64,000 bases of DNA from assembly GCA_003220535.1 (NCBI GenBank), contig QHSU01000068.1:62001-126000 (forward strand), given 5' to 3'. Made by a program: the position numbers and the translations under genes. The stretch is from Candidatus Rokuibacteriota bacterium (GTDB lineage Bacteria > Methylomirabilota > Methylomirabilia > Rokubacteriales > CSP1-6). Positions 3,689-39,943 of the stretch are shown here, piece by piece. The number at the start of each line of letters is the position of its first letter. The stretch's first letter is position 1. The notes beneath the pieces are model-generated. The model was not told where the DNA came from and made no database searches. It worked only from the letters and a program-made list of their open reading frames with translations.

Positions 3689-4908
3689 CGCGCCTCGGCG
3701 TGGCGAGCCGCCGCTCGCCCGACGGCCTCACCCGTGGCCAGGCAGGTCCCGATCACGCGCGCCGAGCCGAGCGCTTCGTGCGTCGCGCTCATGCAGCGGC
3801 CGGCGACGAAGAGGTTCTCGACGTCGCGGGCCTGCAGGCAGCGAAGCGGAATGTCGTAGTGGGTCCCGTCGTCGAGATACTCGTAGGTGGCCCCGAGTCG
3901 TCCTTCTTCCCACAGCTCGATCGGCCAGCTGGCGCGGGCGATGCCGTCGGCGAACTTCCGGCCGCTCAGGACGTCCTCGCGCGTCAGCTGATAGCGCCCG
4001 ATCGCGCGGCGGCTCTCTCGGACGCCGACCTGGGGGGCGGCGTGGGAGACGAAGGCCCGCGTGAACGCGGGCACGGTCTTCAGAAATTCCGTGACGGCGA
4101 GCGCGCGCTTTCGGCCTTCCTGCTCGGCGACCGTCAGGAAGTCGCGGCTCGCGGGTAGCTCCTCGGCGATCCCGCTGAGCGTGAGCTTGCAGACGACTTC
4201 GCCCGGCTGCGGTGACGGGCCCAGCGCCAGGTTCGCGGCCCCCTTGGGCAAGCGCCCCTCCTGCTCGGCGGTCACCAGAGATCTCAAGAGCGCCACGCGC
4301 GCGCCTGGCCCGAGGGCGTCGGTATCGACGTGCTGCAGGACGAAGACCAGAGACGGCAGCTGGCGCTCGGCGAGCGGCGCCGTCACCGTGGCGACGCCGG
4401 CGAGGTGCGCGACGACGGCGTCGCCGCTCGCGTCCACGACGGCTCGCGCGGTCAGCTCGACGACACGCTCCCACGTCGCGACGCGTAGCGCCTCGACGCG
4501 GCCGGCGCCGTTCTCGAGGCCCATGAGGAACGTATGGAGGTACACGTCGAGCGGCGAGGCCGAGCCGCTGAGCTCGTCGGCCAGGCAGGCGAACGCGAAC
4601 GGTGTGTAGGGCAGGACGTACGTTCGTCCTCGACGCACCGGCGCGCCGCAGCCGGGCATGGCCGTGAGCCGCCGGGCGACGGTGTCGGCGAAGCCCTCGT
4701 TGAGCGGCTCCGGCGGTCCAGACGACGCGGTCCGATAGAGACCGCAGATCGTGCTCACCATGCCGGCCGTCGCCATGCCGCCGAGAAAGCCGTAGCGCTC
4801 GACGAGCGCTGTGCGCGCCCCCGAGCGTGCGGCCGCCACGGCGGCGGCCAGGCCGGCGGCGCCGCCACCCACCACCACGACGTCGTAGCTCAGCGCGCTG
4901 TTTGCCAC
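3685..4908 (-). CDS. FAD-dependent oxidoreductase (FAD_oxidored family)
   Basis: The 407-residue protein has an N-terminal FAD-binding motif GGGAAG (14-19) followed by LVERYGFLGGMATAG, characteristic of the PF12831-type FAD_oxidored family. The C-terminal FAD contact is NLFVAGRCMSATHEALGSA. GTG at 4908 is the only start that removes the out-of-family upstream extension, and it overlaps the end of the acyltransferase gene by 19 bases. Family members oxidise or dehydrogenate varied small substrates, so an oxidation or aromatisation step on the carrier-bound intermediate is a reasonable inference. No second redox cofactor site was seen. Confidence 0.8.
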   Translation of the reverse strand: MANSALSYDVVVVGGGAAGLAAAVAAARSGARTALVERYGFLGGMATAGMVSTICGLYRTASSGPPEPLNEGFADTVARRLTAMPGCGAPVRRGRTYVLPYTPFAFACLADELSGSASPLDVYLHTFLMGLENGAGRVEALRVATWERVVELTARAVVDASGDAVVAHLAGVATVTAPLAERQLPSLVFVLQHVDTDALGPGARVALLRSLVTAEQEGRLPKGAANLALGPSPQPGEVVCKLTLSGIAEELPASRDFLTVAEQEGRKRALAVTEFLKTVPAFTRAFVSHAAPQVGVRESRRAIGRYQLTREDVLSGRKFADGIARASWPIELWEEGRLGATYEYLDDGTHYDIPLRCLQARDVENLFVAGRCMSATHEALGSARVIGTCLATGEAVGRAAARHAEAR

Positions 4909-6230
4909 CCCATGCCCTCGCGGATCGTCTCGACGATACGCGTCACCTCGCCCTCCGTCGCCGCGCCCTCGATCCAGGATACGACCAGGTTGTTCTTGAT
5001 CCCGCAACGGTTGAAGAATACGCCGATCCCGGGCCGGGGCAGCACGGAGGGGGCGTGGTACGCGTTGACGACTCGCCGCCCGAAGAGCTTCTCGAGCGCC
5101 ACGGGGAAATCCATGAGGTCCGCGCAATTGAAGGAAAAGGTTTCTCGGGTCGCCGTGCCGGGAAGATCGCGCAGCATCACCGAGAGCGGACGGTATTTCA
5201 GAAACTCCATCGCCGCCGCGTTGGCGTCGATCTGTCCGTCGCGGAGAGCGTCCGTCATCTGGCGGCGCAAGGCCCGCGTCAACCCGGCCACGTCGGCGGT
5301 CTCGGACGGCCTGAACCGAGCGAAGTGGAAGGCGAGCACGTTGCCGAAGGTCGGTCCCGGCTCGCCCTTGGGTCGCACGTCGACCGAGACCGGGACGAGA
5401 AAGGGCACGTCGGGCAACCCGCGCTGCCGCCAGAGCTCGGCCATGGTCCTGCCCACGAGCGCCAGGCGCCAGCAGATCTCGCGAGTCGAGCGGACGCCGT
5501 CGACGCCGCGATCGTCGCCGACGAAGCTCGCCTGCCTGAAGCGGGCCCGTCCCGGCGACGTCAGTCCCGTGCCGGGCGACACCGGTGGCACCGGCGTCAG
5601 CGTCCGCATGTAACGCTGGCTCCGACGCCCGAGCCGTCCGCGCTCTCTCAGCGGACGCGGATCGGGGTCATCGACGAACGCCGGTGGCGTGCCTCCCCAC
5701 GGCGCCCGACCGTCGACCTCATCCAGGTGCGCCAGATGCGCTAGTAGATTCTGTCCACCGCGCGGGTCCATGAGGGGATGGAACCACGTGACGACGAGGA
5801 CGCTTTGCGGCCCCGCCGTCTCCGGCGTGTAGTCGAGGATCGCGAGTCGAAGCGGCGGCTCGCGTCGGGGGTTGATCGCCGCGTTGAGCTCGGCTTCGAG
5901 CTCGGCCTGAAGCGCCTCGGGCGCGCGGAGGCGCTGGTGGCGCACGGCCGGTCCGATCAGTGCGGCCCGTGAACGGGCGGCCCAGTGGAGCTTCCCCCAC
6001 GGGAACGGACGACGCAGGCGCGCTGCCGGCCACGGGCAGACGTCGAGGAATCGGTCCAGACTTCGCCTGATGCGCTCGGGATCGAGCGGCCTGTCGCACT
6101 GGACGACCATGAGCGTGTTGTTGCTCACGCCGGCGTGCTTCCAGAGCGCTTGCATCGCGACGAGCACGAGATCGGCGCCGCGCAACGGCAGCCGACGAAG
6201 GCGTGGAGTCCTCACGCGCTCCGTCGGCAA
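4890..6230 (-). CDS. Condensation/WES-like acyltransferase
   Basis: The 446-residue protein resembles the two-lobed chloramphenicol-acetyltransferase-like fold of condensation domains and wax-ester-synthase acyltransferases. The expected HHxxxDG active site appears as WFHPLMDPRGG: the second His (151) and Asp155 are kept, but the first His is Phe and the Gly is Pro. The second lobe contains GNVLAFHFARF and NRCGIKNNLVVSW. It could transfer the halogenated acyl group from the carrier protein to an alcohol or amine acceptor. The start lies inside the end of the carrier gene (19-base overlap). The family assignment is by motif and architecture only, so it is less certain than its neighbours. Confidence 0.6.
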   Translation of the reverse strand: MPTERVRTPRLRRLPLRGADLVLVAMQALWKHAGVSNNTLMVVQCDRPLDPERIRRSLDRFLDVCPWPAARLRRPFPWGKLHWAARSRAALIGPAVRHQRLRAPEALQAELEAELNAAINPRREPPLRLAILDYTPETAGPQSVLVVTWFHPLMDPRGGQNLLAHLAHLDEVDGRAPWGGTPPAFVDDPDPRPLRERGRLGRRSQRYMRTLTPVPPVSPGTGLTSPGRARFRQASFVGDDRGVDGVRSTREICWRLALVGRTMAELWRQRGLPDVPFLVPVSVDVRPKGEPGPTFGNVLAFHFARFRPSETADVAGLTRALRRQMTDALRDGQIDANAAAMEFLKYRPLSVMLRDLPGTATRETFSFNCADLMDFPVALEKLFGRRVVNAYHAPSVLPRPGIGVFFNRCGIKNNLVVSWIEGAATEGEVTRIVETIREGMGWQTAR

Positions 6231-6487
6231 ATGTAGGTCGCGAAGGCGCGGGGGGTTCTGATGTTCTCGGCGACGAGGTCTTCGTCGGGCATCCAGAACC
6301 CGTACTGAGCCTCGATGAAGAGGAGGACCTTCAGGAGCGCCATCGAGTCGAGACCGGCCAGCTCGAGATCGTCATCGGGCTGAACCGGCCGGCTGCGCGC
6401 CATGATGGCGGAGTTGATGAACTCCGTCACGGCTTTGGCGACCGCTTCCGGATCGAGGCGGGAGAGGTTCCCGGTGGACATGGTCAT
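6212..6487 (-). CDS. Acyl/aryl carrier protein
   Basis: This is a 91-residue free-standing carrier protein. The phosphopantetheine attachment motif is LAGLDSMALL with Ser48, followed by the family helix (LLFIEAQYGFWMPDEDL). ATG 6487 is preferred because GAGGA lies eight bases upstream; a second ATG at 6481 is also possible. It is the first gene of the minus-strand cluster and tethers the intermediate for the ligase, oxidase and halogenase encoded downstream. Its promoter region contains three 11-bp direct repeats (6504-6542). No polyketide synthase or large NRPS module is nearby, so the chemistry appears to run on discrete proteins. Confidence 0.88.
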   Translation of the reverse strand: MTMSTGNLSRLDPEAVAKAVTEFINSAIMARSRPVQPDDDLELAGLDSMALLKVLLFIEAQYGFWMPDEDLVAENIRTPRAFATYICRRSA

Positions 6488-14768: not shown

Positions 14769-17700
14769 ATGAACGGCCCGACGCTCGACGACTTCACCGA
14801 GGTCTCCGGCTGGAGCACGGTGGCGTCTGGACAGGCGCGACTCGACATTTCCGGGGATCGAGGGCCCCGGGGGGGCGCCATGCGGCTCGACTTCGATTTC
14901 AAAGGTGGTGGCGGCTTCGTCGTCGCCCGCAAGCGCTTCTCGTTCCAGCTGCCGGACGCGTACGTCTTCACCTTTGACGTCCGTGGCGTGGCGCCTGCCA
15001 ACAAGCTCGAGTTCAAGCTCGTCGACCCTGGCGGCCACAACGTCTGGCGGTATCAAGAGGACGCCTTCAGCTTCCGGGCGGACTGGCGGTCTCTGCGGAT
15101 CCGGAGCAGCCAGATCGATTTCGCGTGGGGGCCCGCGGGCGGCGGCCCCATGCGCCAGGTCGGGGCGATCGAGCTCGCGATCGCCGCCCCTCCGGGCGGG
15201 AAGGGTACGGTATGGATCGCGAACCTCGGGCTCGAGGATCACAGCTTCCGGTCGATACCGGCTGTTCAGGCATCGAGCGCGCTGCCGGGGCACGAGGCGC
15301 GGTTTGCCGTCGATCGTCGCGCGGAGACGAGCTGGCGGAGCGCGTCCTCCGACGAGTCGCAGTGGTTCATGGTCGACTTCGGAGAGGCGCGCGAGTATGG
15401 AGGGCTCGTCATTCGCTGGGACCCGACGACGCCAGCGCGGCCGTTCGACCTCGACACCTCGGACGACGGCACGGCGTGGAAAACGGTCTACTCGGCCGAG
15501 CGACGTGACGCGGCTCGGAGCTACGTCTACCTGCCCGAGGGCACGTCGCAATGGCTCCGGCTTCGCCTGCACCGCGGCGGCGGCGACGGCAGGGGAATCG
15601 GCATCGCCGAGATCGACGTCCGGCCGTACGAGTTCTCGCGCTCGCTGAATGCATTCTTCCACGGCATCGCCGCGAGCGAGCCCAGGGGGAGCTTCCCGAG
15701 ATATCTCAGCGGCGAGCAGACCTACTGGACGCCGGTGAGTATCGCCCACGGGGGCGCCACGCAGGGGCTCCTCAACGAAGACGGCATGCTCGAGGTCGGT
15801 AGAGGCACGTTCTCGATCGAGCCCTTTCTGTACATCGACGAAGAGCTCGTTACCTGGGCCGACAGCGCCCCCACTCAGGAGCTCGAGCAGGGCTTCCTTC
15901 CCATCCCGTCGTCGCTGTGGCGGAAGGACGGGATCACCCTCCGGGCCACTGCCTTCGCGACGGGCGAGGCGGACCAGGCTGTCCTCTACGTGCGGTACCG
16001 GCTCGAAAACCTAAAGACCGAGCCGCGACGAGTGCGATTCTTCGCCGCGCTGCGCCCGTTCCAGGTGACGCCGCCCTGGCAGGCCTTCCTCGAGCTCGGC
16101 GGCGTCAGTCGCATCACGACGCTCGAGTACGTACGCGGAGTCGTATCGGTGAATCGTGGGAAGGTCCTGGTTCCGCTCACCGCTCCGAGCGGGTTCGGGG
16201 CGGCGGCCTTCGAGCGGGGTGCCGTGACCGACTACCTGCGGTCGGGCGACGTGCCGCCAGAGGAGGCGGTGCGCGACGGCTTCGGCTGTGCCTCCGGGGC
16301 CCTGCGGTACGATCTCGATCTTGCCCCGGGTTCTGCACGGGACGTTTTTCTGGCGACGCCCTTCGGAGCAGCGGACGCTGCGCTCGCCCTCCGGTCCCGA
16401 GATGTCGACGCTGAAGCGCAGCTCGACGCCGCCGCCCGCGAATGGAACGCGAAGCTGGGGCGCATCGAAATCCGCCTCCCACCGCCCGCTCGAGCCTTCG
16501 CCGATACCTTCAGGACGGCTGCGGCGCACATCCTGATCAATCGCGACGGACCCGCCCTGCAGCCTGGTCCCCGCCGTTACGCCCGATCGTGGATTCGGGA
16601 CGGCGCGACCATGGCGGCGGCCCTGCTGCGCGCGGGCTGTACCGAGGAGGTACGGGACTACGTCCGCTGGTACGCGCGCCATCAAGCCCCCGATGGCACC
16701 GTCCCGTGCTGTGTCGATCGTAACGGCCCCGACTGGCTCGCGGAATACGACAGCCAGGGCGAGCTCATCTACGCCGTCATGGAGCACTTTCGTTTCACCG
16801 GGGATCGCGCCTTCCTCGCCGAGATGTGGCCCGCCGTCACGAGCTCCGTCGATCGGATCGAAGCGCTACGCGGCCAGCGTCTCACGGCCGACTTCCAAAC
16901 GCCGGAAAAACGGGCCTGCTACGGGCTGCTGCCGGAGTCGGTCAGCCACGAAGGCTACCTGGCGCATCCTGTCCACGCGTACTGGGATGACTTCTGGGCG
17001 CTCCGCGGCCTCACCGATGCCGCTACCATGGCGAAGGTCCTCGCAGACGGGCCGCGGCACGCGCGTCTCGTCGCCCTCCGCGACTCCTTTCGTGAGACGC
17101 TCCATGCGTCCATCATAGCGACCATGACGGACCGCGGCCTCGACTACATCCCCGCCTCGGTGGAATGGGCCGACATCGATCCGGCCGCTACGGCCAACGC
17201 CATCGCGTTGCTCGACGAGGCGCAGGCATTGCCCGCTGCCGCCATCGAACGGACGTTCGACGAATACCTGTCGAACTTTCGGAAGCGGCGGAGAGGTGAG
17301 GTCGACTGGAGCAACTACTCGCCGTACGAGATCCGCATCGTCGGAGCGTTGGTCCGTCTCGGAAGGCGCGAGAGCGCCTTCGAGCTGGCGCAGTTCTTCC
17401 TGGGGGACCGACGCCCATTGGCGTGGAACCAGTGGTCGGAGATCGCGTGGCGGGATCCGAGGAGCCCGGCGCACATCGGCGACATGCCGCACACGTGGAT
17501 CGCCGCCGAATTCGCCCTCGCCTTCCGCAGCATGCTCGCATTCGAGCGAGAGGCGGACCAGGCCCTCGTCGTGGCCGCAGGTGTGCCGGCCGAGTGGCTG
17601 GAGGGCGATGATGGCGTGGGTGTGAACGACCTGCCGACCTGGTACGGAACGCTGAGCTTCTCCATGAGGCGCGCCGGTGATGGCATCGACATGGACCTCA

Positions 17701-17864
17701 CGCTCACGGAGGACGTCATGATGCCTGCAGGCGGGATCGTCGCTCGGCCGCCGGGCAATGCGCCGCTGCGCGCGGTCCTCGTGAACGGCAAGCCCATCAC
17801 GCGCTTCACCGACGCGCAGGCCACCATCGAGGAACTTCCTGCGAAGGTCCGATTGATTCGGTGA
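14769..17864 (+). CDS. Discoidin (F5/8) domain and (alpha/alpha)6 glycosidase-like protein
   Basis: The 1031-residue protein has no signal peptide. Residues about 1-155 form a beta-sandwich like a carbohydrate-binding module (MRLDFDFKGGGGFVVARK; LEFKLVDPGGHNVW). Residues about 160-290 are a discoidin/F5-8 domain (ASSALPGHEARFAVD; SQWFMVDFGEAREYG). The rest is a glycosidase-type barrel with RSWIRDGATMAAALLRAG, AEYDSQGELIYAVMEHFR and WNQWSEIAWRD. It probably hydrolyses or phosphorolyses a glucan-type polymer. No ribosome binding site precedes ATG 14769. Its stop overlaps the next start as GTGA, and it sits in a three-gene coupled set with a GH94 tail and an ABC transporter. Confidence 0.7.
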   Translation: MNGPTLDDFTEVSGWSTVASGQARLDISGDRGPRGGAMRLDFDFKGGGGFVVARKRFSFQLPDAYVFTFDVRGVAPANKLEFKLVDPGGHNVWRYQEDAFSFRADWRSLRIRSSQIDFAWGPAGGGPMRQVGAIELAIAAPPGGKGTVWIANLGLEDHSFRSIPAVQASSALPGHEARFAVDRRAETSWRSASSDESQWFMVDFGEAREYGGLVIRWDPTTPARPFDLDTSDDGTAWKTVYSAERRDAARSYVYLPEGTSQWLRLRLHRGGGDGRGIGIAEIDVRPYEFSRSLNAFFHGIAASEPRGSFPRYLSGEQTYWTPVSIAHGGATQGLLNEDGMLEVGRGTFSIEPFLYIDEELVTWADSAPTQELEQGFLPIPSSLWRKDGITLRATAFATGEADQAVLYVRYRLENLKTEPRRVRFFAALRPFQVTPPWQAFLELGGVSRITTLEYVRGVVSVNRGKVLVPLTAPSGFGAAAFERGAVTDYLRSGDVPPEEAVRDGFGCASGALRYDLDLAPGSARDVFLATPFGAADAALALRSRDVDAEAQLDAAAREWNAKLGRIEIRLPPPARAFADTFRTAAAHILINRDGPALQPGPRRYARSWIRDGATMAAALLRAGCTEEVRDYVRWYARHQAPDGTVPCCVDRNGPDWLAEYDSQGELIYAVMEHFRFTGDRAFLAEMWPAVTSSVDRIEALRGQRLTADFQTPEKRACYGLLPESVSHEGYLAHPVHAYWDDFWALRGLTDAATMAKVLADGPRHARLVALRDSFRETLHASIIATMTDRGLDYIPASVEWADIDPAATANAIALLDEAQALPAAAIERTFDEYLSNFRKRRRGEVDWSNYSPYEIRIVGALVRLGRRESAFELAQFFLGDRRPLAWNQWSEIAWRDPRSPAHIGDMPHTWIAAEFALAFRSMLAFEREADQALVVAAGVPAEWLEGDDGVGVNDLPTWYGTLSFSMRRAGDGIDMDLTLTEDVMMPAGGIVARPPGNAPLRAVLVNGKPITRFTDAQATIEELPAKVRLIR

Positions 17865-18235
17865 GCCTCACTGCTTGGAACGCGCCGGCTCCCGAGCCGC
17901 CGCACGAGGGCCGCGGGGGCTGGAGCTGGTACACGGGCTCCGCCGGATGGCTCTATCGTGTAGCGCTGGAGTCCATCCTCGGCTTCCCTGTCGAGAACGG
18001 CGACACGATCCTCCTGCGTCCTCGCGTGCCCAACGCGTGGCCGGGATATCGCATCATCTATCGCACTGGCACCGGCACGGTCTACGAAATCGAGGTGAAG
18101 AACCCGAATCGGCGCGCGGCCGGGGTCGTGGCCGTCGAGCTCGACGGGCGATTCGCCGGGTCCCGCGACGGGGAGGCGCGCATCGCGCTTGCGACGGACG
18201 GCCGCACGCATCGCGTGAGCGTCATAGTCGCATGA
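17861..18235 (+). CDS. GH94-type C-terminal tail (NdvB/cellobiose phosphorylase-like), probably a truncated gene
   Basis: The 124 residues match only the C-terminus of GH94 enzymes. HEGRGGWSWYTGSAGWLYRV is the diagnostic block of cyclic beta-1,2-glucan synthases and cellobiose phosphorylases, followed by ALESILGF, LRPRVPNAWPGYRI and a beta-sandwich end. A complete GH94 catalytic protein is about 800 residues or more, so most of the gene is missing. It nevertheless begins with GTG overlapping the previous stop (GTGA) and ends overlapping the next start (ATGA). It is either a deletion scar kept in frame or a small accessory domain. Its nature as a tail is clear; its function is doubtful. Confidence 0.65.
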   Translation: MSLTAWNAPAPEPPHEGRGGWSWYTGSAGWLYRVALESILGFPVENGDTILLRPRVPNAWPGYRIIYRTGTGTVYEIEVKNPNRRAAGVVAVELDGRFAGSRDGEARIALATDGRTHRVSVIVA

Positions 18236-19974
18236 CGGTGCCCGGTCCGAACCCGGACGCCCCGGCGGTGAGCGAGCAGCGGGTTCCCATCACGCGACCG
18301 ACCTGGTCTCGGTTGGGCCGCGCGGTCAAGGATTTCGCCAACTGCGAGGTCGGTTGGCGCGCGCGCGGGCTCTTCGCTCTGCTCATCACCCTGCTCGTCG
18401 TCTTCAACGCCTTGAACGTGTTGAACAGCTACGTGGGCCGGGACTTCATGACGGCCATCTCGAACCGCGACTCGGCCCGGTTCACCCGGCAAGCCATCGC
18501 ATACCTCGCGGTGTTCGGAGCCTCGACCCTCGTGGGTACCTTCATTTCCTTCAGCGAGCAGCGGCTGGGCCTGCTCTGGCGAGAATGGCTCACTCGCCAG
18601 TTCCTCGGCGCGTACCTCGATCGGAGAGCCTACTATCGCCTGAGCGCCGCGGGCGTGCTGACGAACCCCGACGAGCGCATCGCGGAGGACGTCAAGGCGT
18701 TCACGGCGACCACCCTGTCGTTCGTGCTCATGCTGTCCAACGCCACCGTGACGGCGGTGGCGTTTTCCGGGGTGCTGTGGTCGATCAGCCACACGCTGTT
18801 CGGGGTCGCTCTCCTGTACGCGGCATTAGGCTCTGCATTGACCGTGGTGTTCGGTCGCCCCCTCGTCTGGCTCAACTACAACCAGCTCGACAAGGAGGCC
18901 GACTTTCGCGCGAACCTCGTTCACGTTCAGGCGAACGCCGAGTCGATCGCGCTCCTGCATCGCGAGGGACGGCTCGGCACCCGGCTGCGGGGCCGGCTCG
19001 GCGACCTGACGGCCAACATGCGTCGGCTCATCGCCGTGAACCGGAACCTCGCTTTCTTCACCAACGGGTACAACTACCTGATCCAGATCATCCCGGCTCT
19101 GGTCGTGGCCCCCTTCTTCATCCGGGGCGAGGTCGAGTTCGGCGTGATCACTCAGTCGGCGATGGCCTTCTCAGTCCTGCTGGGTGCGCTCTCGCTCGTC
19201 GTCACCCAGTTCCAGTCGATCTCCTCGTTCGCCGCTGTGGTTGCGCGGCTCGGGTCGCTCGCGGACGCGCTGGAGGGCGTCCGGACACCGGCCGTAGCTC
19301 CCCTCGACGTGCACGAGGACGACACTCGCGTCGCTTACGAGCGGCTGACGCTCCGTTCGCCGGGGAACGACCACGTCCTGGTGAGAGACCTGTCCGTGTC
19401 GGTGCCGCGCGGAACGACGGCGTTGATCGTCGGCCCGAACGACGCCGCCAAGGTCGCGCTCCTCCGCGCAACTGCCGGGATCTGGGAAAACGGAAGCGGA
19501 CGTATCGTCCGGCCCGGGCTCGACGCCATCCTCTTCCTCCCCGAGCGGCCATACTTGCCTCCCGGAACGCTCCGGGATGTGATCCTGCCGACGGGACAGG
19601 AGGGCGCCATCGGGGACGAGCAGATCGCGACGTTGCTGCGGGGACTGGACTTGGAGGCCGTCCTGGAGCGAATGGGCGGCCTTGACATCGAGCGGGACTG
19701 GGACGACGTTCTCTCGCTCGGCGAGCAGCAGCTGCTCTCCGTCGCCCGGGTGGTCCTTGCCGCGCCTCGCTTCGTCTTCCTCGAGCGACCGGGCGCCACC
19801 CTGGGGGCCGCCCACGCCGATCGGGTCCTGAGCCTGCTCCGGGAGCGATCGATCACGTATCTCACGCTCGGGGACGGCGGCGATATGCTGGACAACCACG
19901 ATTTCGTTCTCGAACTCACCGTGGACGGCGGGTGGACCTGGACGGCGCGCCACCAAGCCATGGAGAGCGCGTGA
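18232..19974 (+). CDS. ABC_membrane_2 (SbmA/YddA-like) transporter with degenerate ATPase domain
   Basis: The 580-residue protein has a six-helix ABC_membrane_2 domain (residues about 25-330; starts FANCEVGWRARGL, includes ALNVLNSYVGRDF and LNYNQLDKEADFR). A C-terminal nucleotide-binding domain follows in which nearly every catalytic element is altered. Walker A reads GPNDAAKV (Lys407 kept, the Ser/Thr replaced by Val, two Gly lost). The Q-loop is LPERPY instead of LPQRPY, Walker B is FVFLERPG instead of FLDEA, and the switch His is Asp (TLGDG). Only the signature LSLGEQQ is normal. Family relatives export or import peptides and acyl compounds. This copy may be proton-driven, like SbmA, or inactive. 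Confidence 0.8.
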   Translation: MTVPGPNPDAPAVSEQRVPITRPTWSRLGRAVKDFANCEVGWRARGLFALLITLLVVFNALNVLNSYVGRDFMTAISNRDSARFTRQAIAYLAVFGASTLVGTFISFSEQRLGLLWREWLTRQFLGAYLDRRAYYRLSAAGVLTNPDERIAEDVKAFTATTLSFVLMLSNATVTAVAFSGVLWSISHTLFGVALLYAALGSALTVVFGRPLVWLNYNQLDKEADFRANLVHVQANAESIALLHREGRLGTRLRGRLGDLTANMRRLIAVNRNLAFFTNGYNYLIQIIPALVVAPFFIRGEVEFGVITQSAMAFSVLLGALSLVVTQFQSISSFAAVVARLGSLADALEGVRTPAVAPLDVHEDDTRVAYERLTLRSPGNDHVLVRDLSVSVPRGTTALIVGPNDAAKVALLRATAGIWENGSGRIVRPGLDAILFLPERPYLPPGTLRDVILPTGQEGAIGDEQIATLLRGLDLEAVLERMGGLDIERDWDDVLSLGEQQLLSVARVVLAAPRFVFLERPGATLGAAHADRVLSLLRERSITYLTLGDGGDMLDNHDFVLELTVDGGWTWTARHQAMESA

Positions 19975-32549: not shown

Positions 32550-33341
32550 CTATCCCGCGCCCTCGAGCCGTGCGATCTTCGGGAAGACCTCCGACTGCGC
32601 CCGGCGCAGATCCTCGACGAAGTCCACCTCCGTCCAGGGCAAGCCGGTCACGTCGACGCCCCGGACAGGCCATCGGGTGACGAGGAGATGCAGCGCGTCC
32701 TCGTACTCGCAGAGCCCATGGCTCTCGTCGATCACCTGCTCGAGCAGGCGCACCAGCTCCGGGCCCGCTTCCGCTCCGCACTTGAAGAAGCCGATGCCCT
32801 CGCCGACGCGGTCCCATGCCGCCGGGACCACCTTCTTGCCGAGGGCGATGACCCGGTCTCTCTGCGTGTAGATCTTCACCTCTTCGCCCGTGTCGGCGAA
32901 GCCCCGATCGATCAGGAGCGCCTGGGCGGCCGCCGATCCCACGAGCCGGCGCAGGAACTCCCGCGGGAACACGACGTCCGCGTCCATGATGAGCGTCGGT
33001 TCCCGAACAATCAGGTCGCGCGCGCAGTAGAGCGAGAGCGACGAGCCCTTCTGGTAGGCCGGATTGTCGATGCACTGCACCGTCATCCCCGGCGGCGCGG
33101 ACGCCACGAGGGCTCTCACCTGATCGGCGTAGTGCCCGACCACGATCACGACGTGCCCCACGCCGACCGCATGGAGCGCCTCGAGCATCCACGCGAGGAT
33201 CGCGCGGCCTCCGACCGGCAGGAGCGATTTCTGCGTGTGGTCGGTCAGCGGCGCAAGCCGGCGCGCCACGCCCGCCGCCAGGATGATGGCCGAGGGAGAC
33301 ACCGGTCCCTCCCGTGGCTCCCAACGTGCTGGTTCGTTCAT
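32550..33341 (-). CDS. Sugar/choline-phosphate nucleotidyltransferase (LicC/PntC-like)
   Basis: The 263-residue protein has the nucleotidyltransferase signature LAAGVARRLAPLT with the catalytic lysine region KSLLPVGGRA. The segment NPAYQKGSSLSLYCA is typical of CTP:phosphocholine or aminoethylphosphonate cytidylyltransferases. The metal-binding acidic pair is in IMDADVVFP. It should make a CDP- or other NDP-activated head group. It is divergent from a PhyH dioxygenase, sharing an intergenic region with tandem repeats, and lies near a CDP-glycerol-type transferase. That makes envelope polymer decoration likely. Confidence 0.8.
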   Translation of the reverse strand: MNEPARWEPREGPVSPSAIILAAGVARRLAPLTDHTQKSLLPVGGRAILAWMLEALHAVGVGHVVIVVGHYADQVRALVASAPPGMTVQCIDNPAYQKGSSLSLYCARDLIVREPTLIMDADVVFPREFLRRLVGSAAAQALLIDRGFADTGEEVKIYTQRDRVIALGKKVVPAAWDRVGEGIGFFKCGAEAGPELVRLLEQVIDESHGLCEYEDALHLLVTRWPVRGVDVTGLPWTEVDFVEDLRRAQSEVFPKIARLEGAG

Positions 33342-33363
33342 GATTCTCAGAGCCTATAGTATC

Positions 33364-33402
33364 TTGGACGTGCTCGAGCGCATCTTTTGGACGTGCTCGA
33401 GC
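33364..33402. promoter_or_regulatory. Two 16-bp direct repeats, each with a palindromic core (candidate operator)
   Basis: TTGGACGTGCTCGAGC occurs at 33364-33379 and again, identical, at 33387-33402, a 23-bp period. Each copy contains the palindrome GCTCGAGC. They lie in the 96-base gap between the divergent nucleotidyltransferase and PhyH genes, 36-74 bases before the PhyH ATG. The identical copies suggest a dimeric regulator acting on one or both genes. Confidence 0.5.
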
Positions 33403-33437
33403 CCGACCGTATCTCGTGAACGGAGGTTCATCGACGG

Positions 33438-34238
33438 ATGGGCAAGACGACGACCCGGCGGTCCGAGACGGGATTGGCGCTCGATCCCCAGGCGGCGGCG
33501 CACGTCGAGACCGTGCGGCGTGACGGATTCGTGGTGGTCCCGGGCTTGTTCGACGACGACGAGATTCGGCGGATCTCGGCGTGGACCGACGAGCTAGAGG
33601 CTCAGCCCGAGGTGCCGGGGCGCTGCATGAAGTACTTCGAGCCGAGCTTGCTGCGCCCCGGCGAGCGCGTGCTCCAGCGGATCGAGAACTTCTGCCCGTT
33701 CCACGCCGGCTTCGCCGCGCTGTGCGACGGCGACAAGCTGCGCGGCTCCGCGTCCCGGCTCTTCGGCGAGCCAGCCGTGCTCTTCAAGGACAAGATCAAC
33801 TTCAAGCTGCCCGGGGGCGACGGCTTCAAGCCCCATCAAGACCAGCAGGCCGGGTGGAGCACCTACGCCGACCTGTTCATCACCGCCATGGTCAGTATCG
33901 ACTCCACCACCGCCGAGAACGGCTGCCTGGAGCTCTGCGCGGGACACCATACACGGGGACTTCTGGGGGAGGAGTGGACCCCCCTCACCGACGACGACAT
34001 GCGCCGCCTGGGCGCCCGTCCGGTGCCGACCCGAGCCGGCGATGCCGTGTTCTTCGATTCCTACACGCCGCACGCGTCGGGCCCGAATCTCACCGGCGAG
34101 CGCCGGCGCGTGCTCTACATCACCTACAACCGCCGATCGGCCGGGGATCATCGCGTGCGTTATTTCGCCGACAAGCGGGAAAGCTTCCCGCCCGATATCG
34201 AGCGCGACCCCACCCGGACCTACACGTTTCGGGTCTGA
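33438..34238 (+). CDS. PhyH-family Fe(II)/2-oxoglutarate dioxygenase
   Basis: The 266-residue protein has the PhyH layout: DGFVVVPGLFDDDEIRRI, the iron motif KPHQDQQAG (HxD), GCLELCAGHH, the distal His in FFDSYTPHASGPN and Arg in GERRRVLYITYN. Relatives hydroxylate acyl-CoAs, ectoine, or 2-aminoethylphosphonate (PhnY). The last fits the divergent LicC/PntC-like gene, but nothing in the sequence proves a phosphonate substrate. GGAGG lies 12 bases before ATG 33438. Confidence 0.85.
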   Translation: MGKTTTRRSETGLALDPQAAAHVETVRRDGFVVVPGLFDDDEIRRISAWTDELEAQPEVPGRCMKYFEPSLLRPGERVLQRIENFCPFHAGFAALCDGDKLRGSASRLFGEPAVLFKDKINFKLPGGDGFKPHQDQQAGWSTYADLFITAMVSIDSTTAENGCLELCAGHHTRGLLGEEWTPLTDDDMRRLGARPVPTRAGDAVFFDSYTPHASGPNLTGERRRVLYITYNRRSAGDHRVRYFADKRESFPPDIERDPTRTYTFRV

Positions 34239-34256
34239 GGCCACGCGGAGGGTACT

Positions 34257-34496
34257 ATGCCGGTCAGTCGGGCTCTTCGGGTCACGCTCCTTCTCGCGGC
34301 CTTCCTGTCGATCGCGTCGCCGGCGCACGCGTACCTCGATCCGGGAACCGGAAGCATGATTCTCTCGGCCCTGATCGGCGTGGTGGCGGCGGTGGCGCTC
34401 GCGCTCAAGATGTTCTGGTACCGGCTTGTCGGCTGGTTGCGCGGCAAGCGACGCGGGCCGGCAGCGGTGGAAGGCGCACCCGCAGCGGACGAGTAG
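34257..34496 (+). CDS. Small exported/membrane protein with YLDPGTGSM motif
   Basis: The 79-residue protein has an N-terminal signal-like helix ending SPAHA, then the conserved block YLDPGTGSMILSALIGVVAAV leading into a second helix and a basic LVGWLRGKRRG end. Proteins with this YLDPGTGS(M/Y) block occur next to sulfatase or glycan genes, and their role is unknown to me. The strong GGAGG six bases upstream fixes ATG 34257. It is the first gene of the run leading to yejM and yidC. Confidence 0.75.
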   Translation: MPVSRALRVTLLLAAFLSIASPAHAYLDPGTGSMILSALIGVVAAVALALKMFWYRLVGWLRGKRRGPAAVEGAPAADE

Positions 34497-34568
34497 CGCC
34501 GCATCGGTGGACCGCCGCGCGCGCCGTGCGGGCAGCGCCGACCGACGGCTCCGGCGTCGCGACGCCTC

Positions 34569-35762
34569 ATGAAGACGTGGGAGGACTGGAAGAGCTACCG
34601 GCGCTTCACGAAGCTGCCGCCGCGCGACCGCAACATCGTCTTCTACTCCGAAACCTACCAGGACTGGCATCATCTCCAACCGCTCATCGACTTCCTGATC
34701 GAGCGGCTGTCTCGCCCGGTCTGCCACGTCACCTCCGAGCCGACCGTCGCGCTGCCGTCCGTCGGCCGCGGCGGCCTGCACGCCTTCCGCATCCGCGCGG
34801 GCGCCGTGCGTACCTGGTTCTTCCAGATGCTCAAGGCCGACGTCCTGGTGTTGACGATGCTGGATCTGGGAAACTTCCACCTCAAGCGATCGATCCATCC
34901 CGTGCGCTACGTCTACGTGTTCCACAGCATGGGCAGCACGCACCTGGTAGACCACGAAGACTCGTACGACCACTACGACAGCCTGCTCTGCGTGGGGCCC
35001 CACCACATCGCGGAGATCCGCCGACGTGAGCAGCTGAAGGGCCTCACGCCCAAGCATCTGGTCGCCCACGGCTATCCTCGGCTCGAGCGTCTCATCGAGG
35101 TCGCTCGCGCCCACCCGCGGGAGCCGTCGGGCGGGACCACGGCGCTGCTGGCCCCGACCTGGGGCGAGCAGTCGATCCTGCACGTCTGCGGCGAGGCGTT
35201 GATCGCCGCGCTGCTGGCCGCCGACATCCGCGTGATCATGCGACCGCACTACCAGACCGCTCGGCTCGCGCCGCAGCTCGTTCAGCGGCTGATCACCCGA
35301 TTCGGCGGGGACCCGCGCTTCCGGCACGTGGACCGGATGGAGGACAGCGCCTCGCTGCTGGAGTCGGACCTGCTCGTCTGTGATTGGTCCGCCATGGCGA
35401 TCGAGTACGCTCTGGGGCTCGGCAAGCCCGTGCTCTTCGTCGACGTGCCGCCTCGCGTGCGAAATCCAAAATTCGCGGAGCTCGGTCTGGAGCCGATGGA
35501 GATGCGCATCCGTCGGGAGCTCGGGACCATCCTGCCGCTCGACCGCCTGGCGGACGCGCCGCGGCACGTGGCGGAGCTGCGACGCGGCGCGGAGGACTTT
35601 CGCAAACGCACCACGACGTTGCGGGACGAGTGGGTCTTCAACGTCGGCCGCAGCGTCGAGGTCGGGGCACGGGAGATCGCTCGCATCGCGGACGAGCGAG
35701 CCGGCGCCGGCGCATCCGGAGCGCCGCGGGGCGCGGGGCGCCGGCAGGTCGGATCGACGTGA
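34569..35762 (+). CDS. CDP-glycerol glycerophosphotransferase-like protein (TagB/TagF type)
   Basis: The 397-residue protein resembles the GT-B-like fold of teichoic-acid polymerases. It has VYVFHSMGSTHL, where TagF proteins carry a similar QxWHGT/H motif, then YDSLLCVGPHHIAEIRR, HGYPRLERL, LLAPTWGEQS, RPHYQ and the donor-binding end LLVCDWSAMAIEYALGLGKPVLF. It may transfer a glycerophosphate-like unit from a CDP donor to a membrane acceptor, but polymer length and substrate are unknown. The C-terminal 30 residues are low complexity. The next gene starts at the GTGA overlap, so it is coupled to yejM. Confidence 0.7.
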   Translation: MKTWEDWKSYRRFTKLPPRDRNIVFYSETYQDWHHLQPLIDFLIERLSRPVCHVTSEPTVALPSVGRGGLHAFRIRAGAVRTWFFQMLKADVLVLTMLDLGNFHLKRSIHPVRYVYVFHSMGSTHLVDHEDSYDHYDSLLCVGPHHIAEIRRREQLKGLTPKHLVAHGYPRLERLIEVARAHPREPSGGTTALLAPTWGEQSILHVCGEALIAALLAADIRVIMRPHYQTARLAPQLVQRLITRFGGDPRFRHVDRMEDSASLLESDLLVCDWSAMAIEYALGLGKPVLFVDVPPRVRNPKFAELGLEPMEMRIRRELGTILPLDRLADAPRHVAELRRGAEDFRKRTTTLRDEWVFNVGRSVEVGAREIARIADERAGAGASGAPRGAGRRQVGST

Positions 35763-37552
35763 GCGCCAGAAGACGACTGCTCCGCTGGGCGAACTGGTTC
35801 GCCGTCGCCAACGCGGTGCTCCTGGCCGTCGTCGGGTTGCGCTATCTGTGGTATTACTCCGCGCTCGGGCCCTCGGTCGCCTGGGTCTACGCGGCTCTCG
35901 CCTACGTGGGCCACCTGACCGCGCTCGCCTACCTTCCGCTCCTCCTGCTGCTGGGCCCATTGATCGTGCTGGTCCCGCGGCCGGGGGTGGTGCTGCCTCT
36001 CGGCGTCTCCCTGGCCAGCGCCGGCGTCAGCTTCGTGCTGCTCGACAGCCTGGTCTTCGCCGAGAACCGCTACCACCTGAGCGTCCTGACGTTCCGCTTG
36101 CTGGAGCCGCAGACCTTCGTGTTTCTCGCGCTCTATTTCTTCGTGGGCGTGGCCATCGAGTCGATGCTGGCGTCCTGGGTCTGGAAGCGCACCACGCGCC
36201 CGACGCCCCGGGTCGGGTGGTATCTTGCCCTGGTCCTCGGGAGCTGCTTCCTGGCCAGCCATCTCATCCACGCGTGGGCGGCGGCCCACTCCTACGTGCC
36301 GGTGACCGCGTTCACCCGATACCTGCCGCTCTATCACCCGCTCAGGAACGCAAGGCTGCTGACGAGACTGGGTCTCGTTGATCGGGTACGGGCGCGCGAG
36401 CAAGGCCTCGTCACGGCGCTCGGCCAACTGCCTGGCGGCGAGCTGAACTATCCGCTGGCCCCGCTGCGGTGCGAGCCTCGCGCGCCGATGCTCAACGTCC
36501 TGCTCGTCGTGATCGACGCCATGCGCCCGGATGCTTTGACGCCAGCCTTCGCGCCGAGACTCGCCAAATTCGCACCGGGCGCGATCCGATTCGACGGGCA
36601 CTACAGCGGCGGCAACTCGTCGCGGCCCGGAATGTTCTCCCTGTTCTACGGCCTCCCCGCGACCTACTGGGATGCCTTCGCCGGCCGCGCGCGGTCCCCC
36701 GTGCTGATGGACTCGTTCCGACAGTACGGCTACCAGCTCGGGCTGTTTGCCAGCTCACCCCTGTATCGCCTTGTCGAGCTCGATCGGACGGCTTTCGCCG
36801 GCGTCCCGAATCTTCGCCTCGAGACGTCCTCGAGCCTCCCCGGGTCCAGCGGCAGGGACCGGACCTTGACGGATGAGTGGCTCGAGTGGCTCGGCCGGCG
36901 AGACCCATCGCGTCCCTTCTTCGGGTTTCTCTACTACAACGCCTCGGTGGCCATCGAGCCGCCCGACAACTACCCCGAGGTGATCCAGGTTCCAGCGGAA
37001 GCGTCGACCCAGGCCCGCCGATACGCCCGGTACCTGACCGCCGTGCACTTCGTCGACTCGCTGGTCGGGCGAGTGCTCGACGATCTGGAGCGACGGAAGC
37101 TGCTGGAGCGCACCGTGATCATCATCACGTCCGATCACGGTATCGAGTTCGACGAGAACAGGCTGGGCTTCAAGGGACACGGCACGGCGTATAGCGACTA
37201 CCAGATGCGGACGCCGTTGGTGATGCGTTGGCCCGGGCGGCCACCGGGGCGCGTCGTTCGCCGAACCTCCCACAACGACCTGGCGCCGACCCTGCTCGCC
37301 CAGCTGTTCGGCTGTACGAATCCGCCATCCGACTACGCGAGCGGCCACGACCTTTTCTCCGACGCGCAGTGGGACTGGCTCATCGCCGCCAGCTACCGCG
37401 AATACGCCGTGATCGAACCCGAACGGGTGACCGTGATCTACCCGGCCAGCTACGAGATTCGCGACCGGAGCTATCGCCTCGTCCCCAACCCGACGGTCCC
37501 CCGCGACGTGCTGCGAGGGGCGCTGCAGGAGATGAGCCGGTTCTACCGATAG
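35759..37552 (+). CDS. yejM: YejM/PbgA-like inner-membrane protein (DUF3413 plus sulfatase-fold domain)
   Basis: The 597-residue protein follows E. coli YejM (about 586 residues) throughout. Five N-terminal helices begin LLRWANWFAVANAVLLAVVG, with a linker ASHLIHAWAAAHSYVPVTAF. A periplasmic sulfatase-fold domain follows (VVIDAMRPDALTP; SGGNSSRPGMFSLFYGLP; GYQLGLFASSPLYR). YejM regulates LPS synthesis through LapB/FtsH. Here the metal-binding segment reads ITSDHGIEFDE with a later KGHGT, whereas as I recall E. coli has a degenerate ITAGRGI, so this copy may be an active hydrolase or transferase. It starts at GTG 35759, overlapping the preceding stop. Confidence 0.85.
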   Translation: MSARRRLLRWANWFAVANAVLLAVVGLRYLWYYSALGPSVAWVYAALAYVGHLTALAYLPLLLLLGPLIVLVPRPGVVLPLGVSLASAGVSFVLLDSLVFAENRYHLSVLTFRLLEPQTFVFLALYFFVGVAIESMLASWVWKRTTRPTPRVGWYLALVLGSCFLASHLIHAWAAAHSYVPVTAFTRYLPLYHPLRNARLLTRLGLVDRVRAREQGLVTALGQLPGGELNYPLAPLRCEPRAPMLNVLLVVIDAMRPDALTPAFAPRLAKFAPGAIRFDGHYSGGNSSRPGMFSLFYGLPATYWDAFAGRARSPVLMDSFRQYGYQLGLFASSPLYRLVELDRTAFAGVPNLRLETSSSLPGSSGRDRTLTDEWLEWLGRRDPSRPFFGFLYYNASVAIEPPDNYPEVIQVPAEASTQARRYARYLTAVHFVDSLVGRVLDDLERRKLLERTVIIITSDHGIEFDENRLGFKGHGTAYSDYQMRTPLVMRWPGRPPGRVVRRTSHNDLAPTLLAQLFGCTNPPSDYASGHDLFSDAQWDWLIAASYREYAVIEPERVTVIYPASYEIRDRSYRLVPNPTVPRDVLRGALQEMSRFYR

Positions 37553-37572
37553 CGACGGGGCTGGCTCTCCTC

Positions 37573-39087
37573 GTGGGCGCGATCGTTCTTCCCGTCTCCG
37601 TCGACGCGGCGGGCGGTGACAGTGTCCGCGTCACGACCAATCGACTCGATCTCGTGTTCTCCCTCGACGGCGCCAGCCCCGTCGTGTGGCGGGCCTGCCA
37701 TCCTTCCTGCGCTCAGGCCGACATGGCGTCGGGGACGTCGGTCCGCTTCACCGGCGACGACGATCCGCCGCAGCCGCGGCTCTACTTCCGCGGCCCCGGT
37801 CAACCCGTGGATCTCCAGCGGCTGCGCTTCACGGCCGACCGCACGGAGGACGCGCGTGTACGGATCGTGACGTTCGAATCCGATCTGCCGGTCGAGGGCG
37901 TCCGCATCTCGAAAGCGTTCGAGATCTCCCGCGAGGACTACGAGGTCGTGCTGACGGTGCGTCTGCTCGGACCCAACGCGACCGCGTTCGCGGCAGGCCG
38001 GCGTCTCGAGCTCGAGCTGGGTGCGGGCCGGCGCCTGTTCCCGGCCCCGGCCGCCGGCTTCGCCGCAATGCTCGACCGCGTGAGCCGAGTGGTCGTCGCC
38101 GGAGGTGTCGCCCGCACCGTCGGCGACGACCGCCGGGACCCGATGCCGCTGCGCGCCGGCGACTGGGTGGGATTCCACAGCCGATTCTGGGCCCTTGTGC
38201 TGCATTCGGACGGAGCCAGCGCCGTCGAGCGGGGGCCGGGCGCCAGCGTCGTCCTGAGCCCGGCTCACGAGCCGGAACGGCTCTCGTGGCGCTACACGTT
38301 CTACTCGGGGCCGCTGGAGAATCGCGCCTTGACCCACGCAAGCCCCGAGCTCGAACGGATGCTCTTCTCCGGCCTCTGGTCCTGGCTGCGGGCGCTGAGC
38401 TTCGCGCTTCTCTTCCTCCTGCGCGGGCTGACCGCGGTCGTCGGCCATCCCGGCGTGGCGATCGTCGCCCTCGCGCTATCGGTCAAGCTTCTGCTCCTGC
38501 CTCTGACGACCGTGGCCGAGCGACTACAAGAACAGGTCAACGCCACTCAGGCGCGGCTCCAGCCGGGTATCGACGCCATCAAGGCAGCCCATCGAGGCGA
38601 GGAGCGCGCGCGGCGCACGCTGGCCGTGTACCGCGCGGAGGGCGTGCACCCGCTGTACACGCTGAAGAGCCTGCTCGGCGTCCTGATCCAGCTCCCCGTG
38701 TTCATCGCCGTGTTCGACATGCTGGCGGAGGACTTCGACCTTCATCGGGTATCGTTTCTCTGGATCCCGGATCTGTCGCGGCCGGACGAGCTGCTGCGGC
38801 TGCCGATGTGCGTGCCCTTCTTCGGGTGCCACCTGAACCTCTTGCCGTTCCTGATGAGCGGCATATCGCTGGCGGCCCTGTGGCGATTCCGCTCGCGCGT
38901 CCTCACGCCGACCCTCGCGCGCCGGCAACGCAGAAATCTCGCGGCTATGACCCTGCTGTTCTTCCTGCTCTTCTACACATTTCCCGCCGGCATGGTCCTC
39001 TACTGGACGTCGACGAACGCCGTCCAGCTCGCCCGCCAGGAGCTGGAGGGGCTCAGCCGACGCGCGCGCGCACGAAGTCGCCGATGA
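37573..39087 (+). CDS. yidC: YidC/Oxa1-family insertase paralogue with periplasmic domain
   Basis: The product has a YidC-type periplasmic beta-super-sandwich (residues about 10-260; LDLVFSLDGASPVVWRA, VRISKAFEISREDYEV) and the five-helix insertase core. The core includes VKLLLLPLTTVAERLQEQV, GVHPLYTLKSLLGVLIQLPVFIAV and LLFFLLFYTFPAGMVLYWTSTNAVQLA. The groove arginine (VRG...YPLT in E. coli) is replaced by Lys. The start is uncertain. GTG 37573 is the first normal start after yejM, but CTG 37561 would give a fuller signal anchor. The housekeeping yidC usually lies in rnpA-yidC-trmE, so this copy is probably a dedicated paralogue. The 3' end overlaps the convergent esterase by 35 bases. Confidence 0.82.
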   Translation: MGAIVLPVSVDAAGGDSVRVTTNRLDLVFSLDGASPVVWRACHPSCAQADMASGTSVRFTGDDDPPQPRLYFRGPGQPVDLQRLRFTADRTEDARVRIVTFESDLPVEGVRISKAFEISREDYEVVLTVRLLGPNATAFAAGRRLELELGAGRRLFPAPAAGFAAMLDRVSRVVVAGGVARTVGDDRRDPMPLRAGDWVGFHSRFWALVLHSDGASAVERGPGASVVLSPAHEPERLSWRYTFYSGPLENRALTHASPELERMLFSGLWSWLRALSFALLFLLRGLTAVVGHPGVAIVALALSVKLLLLPLTTVAERLQEQVNATQARLQPGIDAIKAAHRGEERARRTLAVYRAEGVHPLYTLKSLLGVLIQLPVFIAVFDMLAEDFDLHRVSFLWIPDLSRPDELLRLPMCVPFFGCHLNLLPFLMSGISLAALWRFRSRVLTPTLARRQRRNLAAMTLLFFLLFYTFPAGMVLYWTSTNAVQLARQELEGLSRRARARSRR

Positions 39088-39943
39088 CCGCGATCGCGCG
39101 CTCGGCCTCGTCCAGCATCGGCAGGAACCAGTGCCAGACGTGGATCATCGCCGGCCACTCCTCGACCGTGACGTCGACGCCGGCCGCGCGGGCCCGCCCG
39201 GCGAGGCCGCGCGCGTCGTCGAGCAGCACTTCTTCGCTCCCGACCTGGACGAGCAGCGGCGGCAGCTGTCGGAGATCGGCGTAGAGCGGCGAGGCGAGCG
39301 GCGTCTTCGGATCGCCGGCGCCCAGGTAGGCGTGCGCCAGCTCGGCCACGCCGTCACGGGTCACGATGGGATCCGTAGCGGCCTTGGTCGCGTAGCTGGC
39401 GCCGCTGCACGCGAGATCGACCCAGGGCGAGATGCATACCCCCGCGGCCGGCCGCGGGAGGCCGCGCTCGCGCAGCGCGATCAAGGCGGCCACGGTGAGC
39501 CCGCCGCCCGCCGAGTCGCCGGCCAGGACGACGCGCCCCGGCGTGACGCCCTGGCCGAGCAGCCACTGGTAGGCCGCGACCGCGTCGTCCAGCGCGGCGG
39601 GGAACGGGTGTTCGGGCGCCAACCGGTAGTCGAGACTGAGTGCCTGCGCGCTGGCCGCCCGCGCGATCGCGGCGGCGAGGTGACGGTGCGAGCGGGGCGA
39701 GCCGATCACATAGCCGCCGCCGTGGAGGTAGAGCACGACCGTGTCCGACCTGACCCGAGGCGGCCGGAGCCATTCGGCGGGCCGCTGCGGCGCTTTCACG
39801 GCCTCGATCGCGACGTCGGCCGGGGTGGGAAAGACGCGCTCCGCGCGGTCGTACTGCGCGCGACGCTGCTCGATGGTGAGCGAGCTCGATGGCGGCAGCT
39901 TCGCCAGGTGCTCACGGACGACGTGAATCCCGCGCTCGGTCAC
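39053..39943 (-). CDS. Alpha/beta hydrolase, HSL-family esterase
   Basis: The 296-residue protein has the hormone-sensitive-lipase oxyanion motif YLHGGGYVIGS, the nucleophile elbow GDSAGGG, ISPWVDLACSG, and the catalytic His region IHVWHWF. Such enzymes hydrolyse short-chain esters. GTG 39943 is chosen because AAAGGAG lies seven bases upstream. The 3' end overlaps that of the yidC paralogue on the other strand. No link to the envelope genes is evident. Confidence 0.9.
   Translation of the reverse strand: MTERGIHVVREHLAKLPPSSSLTIEQRRAQYDRAERVFPTPADVAIEAVKAPQRPAEWLRPPRVRSDTVVLYLHGGGYVIGSPRSHRHLAAAIARAASAQALSLDYRLAPEHPFPAALDDAVAAYQWLLGQGVTPGRVVLAGDSAGGGLTVAALIALRERGLPRPAAGVCISPWVDLACSGASYATKAATDPIVTRDGVAELAHAYLGAGDPKTPLASPLYADLRQLPPLLVQVGSEEVLLDDARGLAGRARAAGVDVTVEEWPAMIHVWHWFLPMLDEAERAIAVIGDFVRARVG

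Follow-up and report, generated by a model that had tools for sequence, protein, structure and literature searches.

The window, a 64,000-nucleotide stretch of a Candidatus Rokuibacteriota genome, contains a cassette of six genes at positions 32550–39087. A gene for a nucleotidyltransferase resembling LicC, PntC and IPCT (32550–33341, minus strand; start at ATG 33341 or GTG 33302) diverges from five co-directional genes on the plus strand. These encode a PhyH family Fe(II)/2-oxoglutarate oxygenase (33438–34238), a 79-aa protein with the motif YLDPGTGSM (34257–34496), a soluble protein resembling CDP-polyol phosphotransferases of the TagB/TagF fold (34569–35762), a homologue of YejM/PbgA/LapC (35759–37552) and a second YidC, hereafter YidC2 (37573–39087). 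The order, coordinates and strands of the genes agree with the original prediction made for this locus, and the GTGA overlap that it described between the end of the transferase gene (35762) and the start of yejM (35759) is real; a four-base overlap at this junction recurs in three other loci (L011, L012 and L013). The yidC2 gene follows yejM directly, as had been proposed, at a distance of about 20 bases given GTG 37573 as its start, which is the probable start codon since the ATG used by its relatives is ATA in the window. Pfam and NCBIfam models assign every protein of the cassette except the 79-aa peptide. Neither an integrase nor a transposase was seen in the cassette, which also contains no carrier-lipid gene or product gene, no flippase and no licD, tagO or tagA; no Rfam elements were found in the window. 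An Abhydrolase_3 esterase gene (39053–39943) and yidC2 share 35 bases at their 3′ ends. Elsewhere in the window, a row of minus-strand genes (984–6487) encodes a Trp-halogenase-like flavoprotein, an AMP-ligase, an FAD oxidoreductase-like protein, an unassigned 431-aa protein and a phosphopantetheine carrier and looks like a small natural-product cluster, and the region 14769–19974 encodes a large protein with an F5/8 type C domain and, after it, an SbmA/BacA-type ABC transporter.

The divergent intergenic region carries a conserved promoter-like element, CTATAGTATC (33354–33363), which may serve both divergent units as a shared promoter element. At the matching place of the spacer, six of the seven modules identified in this work have TATAGTAT or ATAGTAT and the seventh has CATAATAT; ATAGTATC recurs there in the six and CATAATATT in the seventh. 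The remainder of the spacer is dissimilar among modules, as judged by eye. A consensus scan found no sigma-70 site. In the window, a perfect 16-base direct repeat, TTGGACGTGCTCGAGC, occupies 33364–33379 and 33387–33402, with a start-to-start spacing of 23 bases; this repeat is absent from the spacers of the other modules.

The nucleotidyltransferase matches the Pfam model NTP_transf_3 at 61.5 bits (cut-off 27) and has the N-terminal nucleotide-binding motif of the LicC/PntC/IPCT group. The best NCBIfam match, to a bifunctional enzyme of the IPCT type, reaches 90.7 bits and is under the cut-off of that model; the nearest solved relatives are PntC (6pd1), the inositol-phosphate cytidylyltransferase IPCT (2xme) and LicC (1jyk). 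Both the family and the solved relatives thus bear out the earlier assignment of the divergent gene to the LicC/PntC type. PntC, inositol-phosphate cytidylyltransferase and LicC all use CTP to activate small phospho- or phosphono-compounds, and the product of the cassette enzyme is likely to be a CDP-activated phospho-donor. The neighbouring oxygenase scores 97.3 bits with PhyH (cut-off 22), and an HxD motif (HQD) with a distal histidine can be read in its translation.

The transferase passes the cut-off of Glyphos_transf (PF04464; 30.5 bits, cut-off 22.1). No match to it was found in the PDB by sequence, but the 11 best PDB matches of its AF2 model (pLDDT 68.5) in a Foldseek search are all TagF (E 3e-10), at a TM-score of about 0.45 and 14% identity. 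The model therefore points to a TagF fold remote from the characterised enzymes and is in accord with the TagB/F-like nature ascribed to this protein at the outset. Residues H119, H227 and DWS 272–274 are invariant and, from their order in the sequence, are candidates for the active-site histidines and the acidic/serine motif of TagB/TagF. The 79-aa peptide, whose topology was read from its sequence and not obtained with a prediction program, comprises an arginine in the n-region, a hydrophobic core, an A-x-A site followed by YLDPGTGSM, one membrane span and a basic tail; the motif is invariant in the six copies aligned. A known family was sought for the peptide, and no Pfam or NCBIfam match was obtained. 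Sec-independent substrates, including those of procoat-type assays, have been used to define YidC (PMC8920935). The peptide is likely to be a YidC client, as it has the layout of such substrates: a cleavable signal peptide, a short N-out segment, a single span and a basic C-in tail.

In YejM of E. coli, the metal site is partly degenerate and enzyme activity is disputed. The YejM of the cassette consists of a DUF3413 part (163.3 bits, cut-off 27.1) followed by a Sulfatase domain (128.2 bits, cut-off 25) and can be aligned over its full length with E. coli YejM (5i5h, E 2.9e-68). Since it scores 279.2 bits with LapC_YejM_PbgA (NF038282), below the curated cut-off of 825, it is treated here as a homologue and is not named LapC. 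The D-X9-H dyad defined in DUF3413 (PMC7018646) is present as D96/H106 and is invariant in seven sequences. In place of Asp268, Thr302 and Arg451 of the E. coli protein (PMC7576196), the module proteins have D253, S288 and DHG, followed by GHG (GHA in one copy), and every copy of sufficient length, a standalone one included, shows the full set. The E. coli protein has AGRG at the place of DHG, whereas the homologue of P. aeruginosa also has DHG, which makes the enterobacterial protein the odd one of those compared. Judged by these residues, the module YejM is a protein that keeps the full alkaline-phosphatase-type metal site, partly lost in E. coli, and the intact catalytic site argues for an enzyme over a pure sensor.

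YidC2 is recognised by 60KD_IMP (96.0 bits, cut-off 35) and TIGR03592 (102.1 bits, cut-off 84.3), and its best solved relative is E. coli YidC. Its predicted architecture comprises a signal peptide, a periplasmic domain, which is included in the profile alignment to the housekeeping YidC, and a five-TM core. K314 aligns with R366 of E. coli and with a lysine of the housekeeping protein and is kept in all copies covering the position; Y486–W487 stand in place of Y516/Y517 of E. coli (residues from PMC8920935). Thus, YidC2 appears to keep the hallmarks of an insertase, namely the groove lysine, the aromatic pair and the periplasmic domain. This reading of the groove rests on sequence because the AF2 model has a pLDDT of 36. 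At the N-terminus, the copies of G014 and G018 have, by eye, a cleavable signal peptide with an AxA-like site as against the usual anchor helix.

The genome of the window (G000; 7.18 Mb, 162 contigs) is 93.8% complete with 8.2% contamination, which is of no concern for the locus because it is flanked by sequence typical of the genus; the near relatives of this genome are Candidatus Rokuibacteriota MAGs. It encodes two YidC proteins. The canonical gene lies on contig C112 in the order rnpA–yidD–yidC–mnmE, beside dnaA, so the cassette gene is not the only copy, and the idea of a dedicated YidC is upheld by a second YidC that is tied to the cassette. The two proteins share 29–31% identity (by profile comparison, 29% across 424 columns at a probability of 99.6%), and YidC2 is therefore not a recent duplicate. 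LpxC is present, in keeping with the Gram-negative host that had been assumed. A LapB-like protein with TPR-like repeats and a C-terminal zinc ribbon is also encoded (L064:1489–2436), though YejM is rare in the order.

The distribution of the cassette was assessed in 95 genomes of the phylum, among which the carriers are seven draft metagenome genomes from one family and three genera. The TagF-like protein occurs in exactly seven of the 95 (G000, G014, G018, G021, G023, G025 and G028), and a coding pattern for YLDPGTG, with the threonine codon sixth, occurs in the same seven, with one additional match in G023 outside such a gene. All seven modules include the PhyH and nucleotidyltransferase genes. 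Within the order, DUF3413 was detected in 7 of 60 genomes, or YejM in 8 of 60 once G018 is added by contig inspection, and a second YidC in 6 of 60; YidC2 accompanies the 79-aa peptide in every case. Contig ends affect three of the modules: in G018 the C-terminal part of YejM directly precedes YidC2 at such an end, the first 47 residues of YidC2 lie at one in G028, and the module of G021 is split across two. Direct adjacency of yejM and yidC on one contig, the recurrence of which had been set as a check, was found in five genomes (G000, G014, G018, G023 and G025). It is not obligatory, since G028 has yejM at the opposite end of the module and yidC behind the transferase gene. Standalone yejM genes that share the family features of the module gene exist in two genomes. 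That of G021 (L016:2691–4364) is a second copy and lacks about 40 residues towards the end of its transmembrane part; that of G019 (L018:1–1032) lies at the end of a contig. Taken together, the co-occurrence and the standalone genes indicate that the cassette is a unit, as the original prediction had it, and that YejM also has a life of its own. A contig scan with strict patterns of the transferase, which extended to other phyla, matched four Rokubacteria MAGs only, and carriers may exist in other phyla; no relatives of the transferase or the peptide were found on plasmids. Plasmid YidC matches were rejected as relatives of the module, as they look like ordinary YidC, and so were the yejM genes carried on plasmids of P. 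aeruginosa and E. asburiae, next to which no yidC or peptide gene is annotated.

The same order and polarity of the six genes recur in different flanks, and this recurrence is far beyond chance. The flanks of G000, G014 and G018 differ from those of G021 and G025, and both differ from those of G023 and of G028. In the genus of the window, an empty site with the order DUF1326 gene (w27)–w28–esterase (w35)–w46 was found in G015, G017 and G019, the esterase of G017 and G019 being recognised by a DNA match and not by a clean gene call; G020 has w27–w28–w35 near a contig end. The module lies between w28 and w35 in G000, lies between w35 and w36 in G014 and adjoins w35 in G018. It therefore entered twice at neighbouring points or was rearranged there, and the Abhydrolase_3 esterase, found on either side of the module within the genus, marks the region of insertion. 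A comparable pair is formed by G023 and G024, the flanks of which have 90–93% nucleotide identity and the housekeeping YidC proteins of which are 95.7% identical; where G023 has the module, G024 carries about 3.3 kb of different sequence.

Between genera, the cassette proteins are 73–87% identical, whereas the housekeeping YidC proteins are about 55–65% identical. For genera g1 and g7, the values are 74–87% for the nucleotidyltransferase, the PhyH protein and the TagF-like protein and 55–57% for the housekeeping YidC. Compared with the TagF-like protein of the window, that of G023, which belongs to a different genus, is 82% identical, and that of the congener G014 is 72% identical. In a tree of four joined module proteins, the copy of G028 (genus g9) is nested among the g1 copies of G014 and G018; this group is fully supported and excludes the copy of the window. 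The excess of cassette identity over housekeeping identity and the placement of G028 among g1 copies show that the cassette moves horizontally between genera of the Rokubacteria, an uncultured group with members in soil. The dN/dS values of all six genes are 0.10–0.46; therefore, every gene is maintained by purifying selection.

From the gene identities, the linkage and conservation of the set, its mobility, the selection on its genes and the intact catalytic motifs, a scheme can be proposed in which the substrates, the direction of flow, the lipid or glycan acceptor, the role of YejM and the client of YidC2 would be as follows. The nucleotidyltransferase would activate a small phospho-alcohol as a CDP derivative, and the PhyH oxygenase would hydroxylate this donor or its precursor. 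The TagF-fold enzyme would then transfer the phospho-group of the CDP derivative to a lipid or glycolipid of the envelope, on the cytosolic side of the membrane. At the periplasmic face, YejM, with its metal site and serine nucleophile, might hydrolyse the phosphodiester or pass it on, and YidC2 would act as a dedicated insertase or chaperone for the membrane parts of the module, above all the 79-aa peptide and possibly YejM. This is the simplest order of events that gives each of the six parts a use. The cassette is thus tentatively read, with somewhat less than an even chance of being correct, as a mobile envelope-modification system that transfers a CDP-activated phospho-group onto an envelope lipid or glycan and has its own insertase; this is the best explanation, and a maker of a CDP donor next to a TagF fold is functionally coherent. 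It retains from the original prediction, which had envisaged a system for making or sensing an envelope polymer, the module and its second YidC and departs from the option of a pure sensor, against which the intact site of YejM argues.

The chief rival to the client-insertase reading is that YidC2 moves lipids. Lipid scrambling, both in vitro and in simulation, is known for purified E. coli YidC and for other insertases of the Oxa1 family (PMC10491306), and the cassette lacks a flippase, though donor synthesis would be cytosolic and YejM periplasmic. YidC2 could then be a scramblase that carries the phospho-decorated lipid to the periplasmic face for YejM, the peptide being a subunit of the machine. 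The strong divergence from the housekeeping YidC and the change of the NPxGGC stretch to HPLYTLKSL fit this proposal; the retention of the groove lysine, aromatic pair and periplasmic domain, and the presence of a likely client encoded beside YidC2, do not. Moreover, scrambling is general to insertases and needs no dedicated copy. On balance, a scramblase is considered unlikely. Its more specific form, in which a YidC paralogue was recruited from protein biogenesis as a dedicated or peptide-gated scramblase that delivers a CDP-derived phospho-lipid to a live YejM, is slightly less likely again.

A module of LPS homeostasis, in which YejM would act like E. coli LapC, sensing lipid A and governing LapB–FtsH turnover of LpxC, with the other proteins modifying lipid A, is improbable. 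The host does have LpxC and a LapB-like TPR/zinc-ribbon protein, and the conserved dyad of DUF3413 (PMC7018646) would suit this role. However, a protein with so sparse an occurrence in the order is not a core regulator there, its metal site is intact where that of the E. coli sensor is degenerate, and it travels with biosynthetic enzymes. Still less probable is phosphonate tailoring, the branch of the original PntC idea that has lost ground, in which a PntC-type enzyme would make CMP-phosphonate, the PhyH protein would act on the phosphonate and the transferase would place it on the surface. PntC is the best solved relative of the nucleotidyltransferase, and the closest NCBIfam model of the PhyH protein is methylphosphonate hydroxylase, but that match is far under its cut-off (177.7 against 500 bits). 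The phosphonate donor is further weakened because PEP mutase reaches its curated cut-off (320) in 6 of 59 genomes of the order and in none of the seven module genomes; the best match in G000 has 118 bits, and G014 has one partial match of 189 bits. That the six genes form no functional unit and are carried along together fortuitously, as on a single transferred fragment, is very improbable, for the changed order in G028 and the standalone yejM genes of G021 and G019 are outweighed by the recurrence of the set in several contexts with unchanged gene content at its boundaries, the kept four-base overlap and the purifying selection on every gene.

In the open-licence papers searched, no yejM–yidC pair, no Gram-negative YidC dedicated to one cassette and no biosynthetic module with a YejM were found, and the peptide motif was not mentioned; for the yejM–yidC pair, this agrees with the expectation stated at the start. 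Apart from the peptide, the proteins belong to known families; their combination, the mobility of the set and the pairing of the peptide with a private YidC were not found described. As a small separable system, the cassette lends itself to asking what the periplasmic domain of YejM/PbgA does as an enzyme and whether YidC-family insertases serve lipid transport in cells. YidC2 and the 79-aa peptide are also a natural candidate pair for the study of client recognition by YidC.

YidC2 shares with the YidC/Oxa1 insertases, including the YidC2 paralogues of Gram-positive bacteria, the fold as recognised by profile, the groove lysine and the five-TM core. Unlike those paralogues, it is of the Gram-negative type with a periplasmic domain and is tied to one cassette; in the literature searched, known paralogue pairs, such as YidC1/YidC2 of Streptococcus mutans (PMC8595059), were not found as part of an envelope-modification cassette. 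The module YejM has in common with YejM/PbgA/LapC of enterobacteria the five-TM DUF3413 part with its D-X9-H dyad and the periplasmic domain of the sulfatase fold. It differs in its complete DHG/GHG motifs, in the serine that replaces Thr302 and in its location inside a mobile biosynthetic cassette, the annotated gammaproteobacterial copies inspected having no yidC beside them. With the Lic, Pnt and teichoic acid pathways (LicC, PntC, IPCT and TagF), the cassette would share the activation of a small phospho-alcohol by a nucleotidyltransferase, together with a transferase that has the CDP-glycerol glycerophosphotransferase fold. In contrast to these pathways, it has no licD and no tagO or tagA, its genome has no PEP mutase at the cut-off, and it adds a PhyH oxygenase, a YejM and a YidC.
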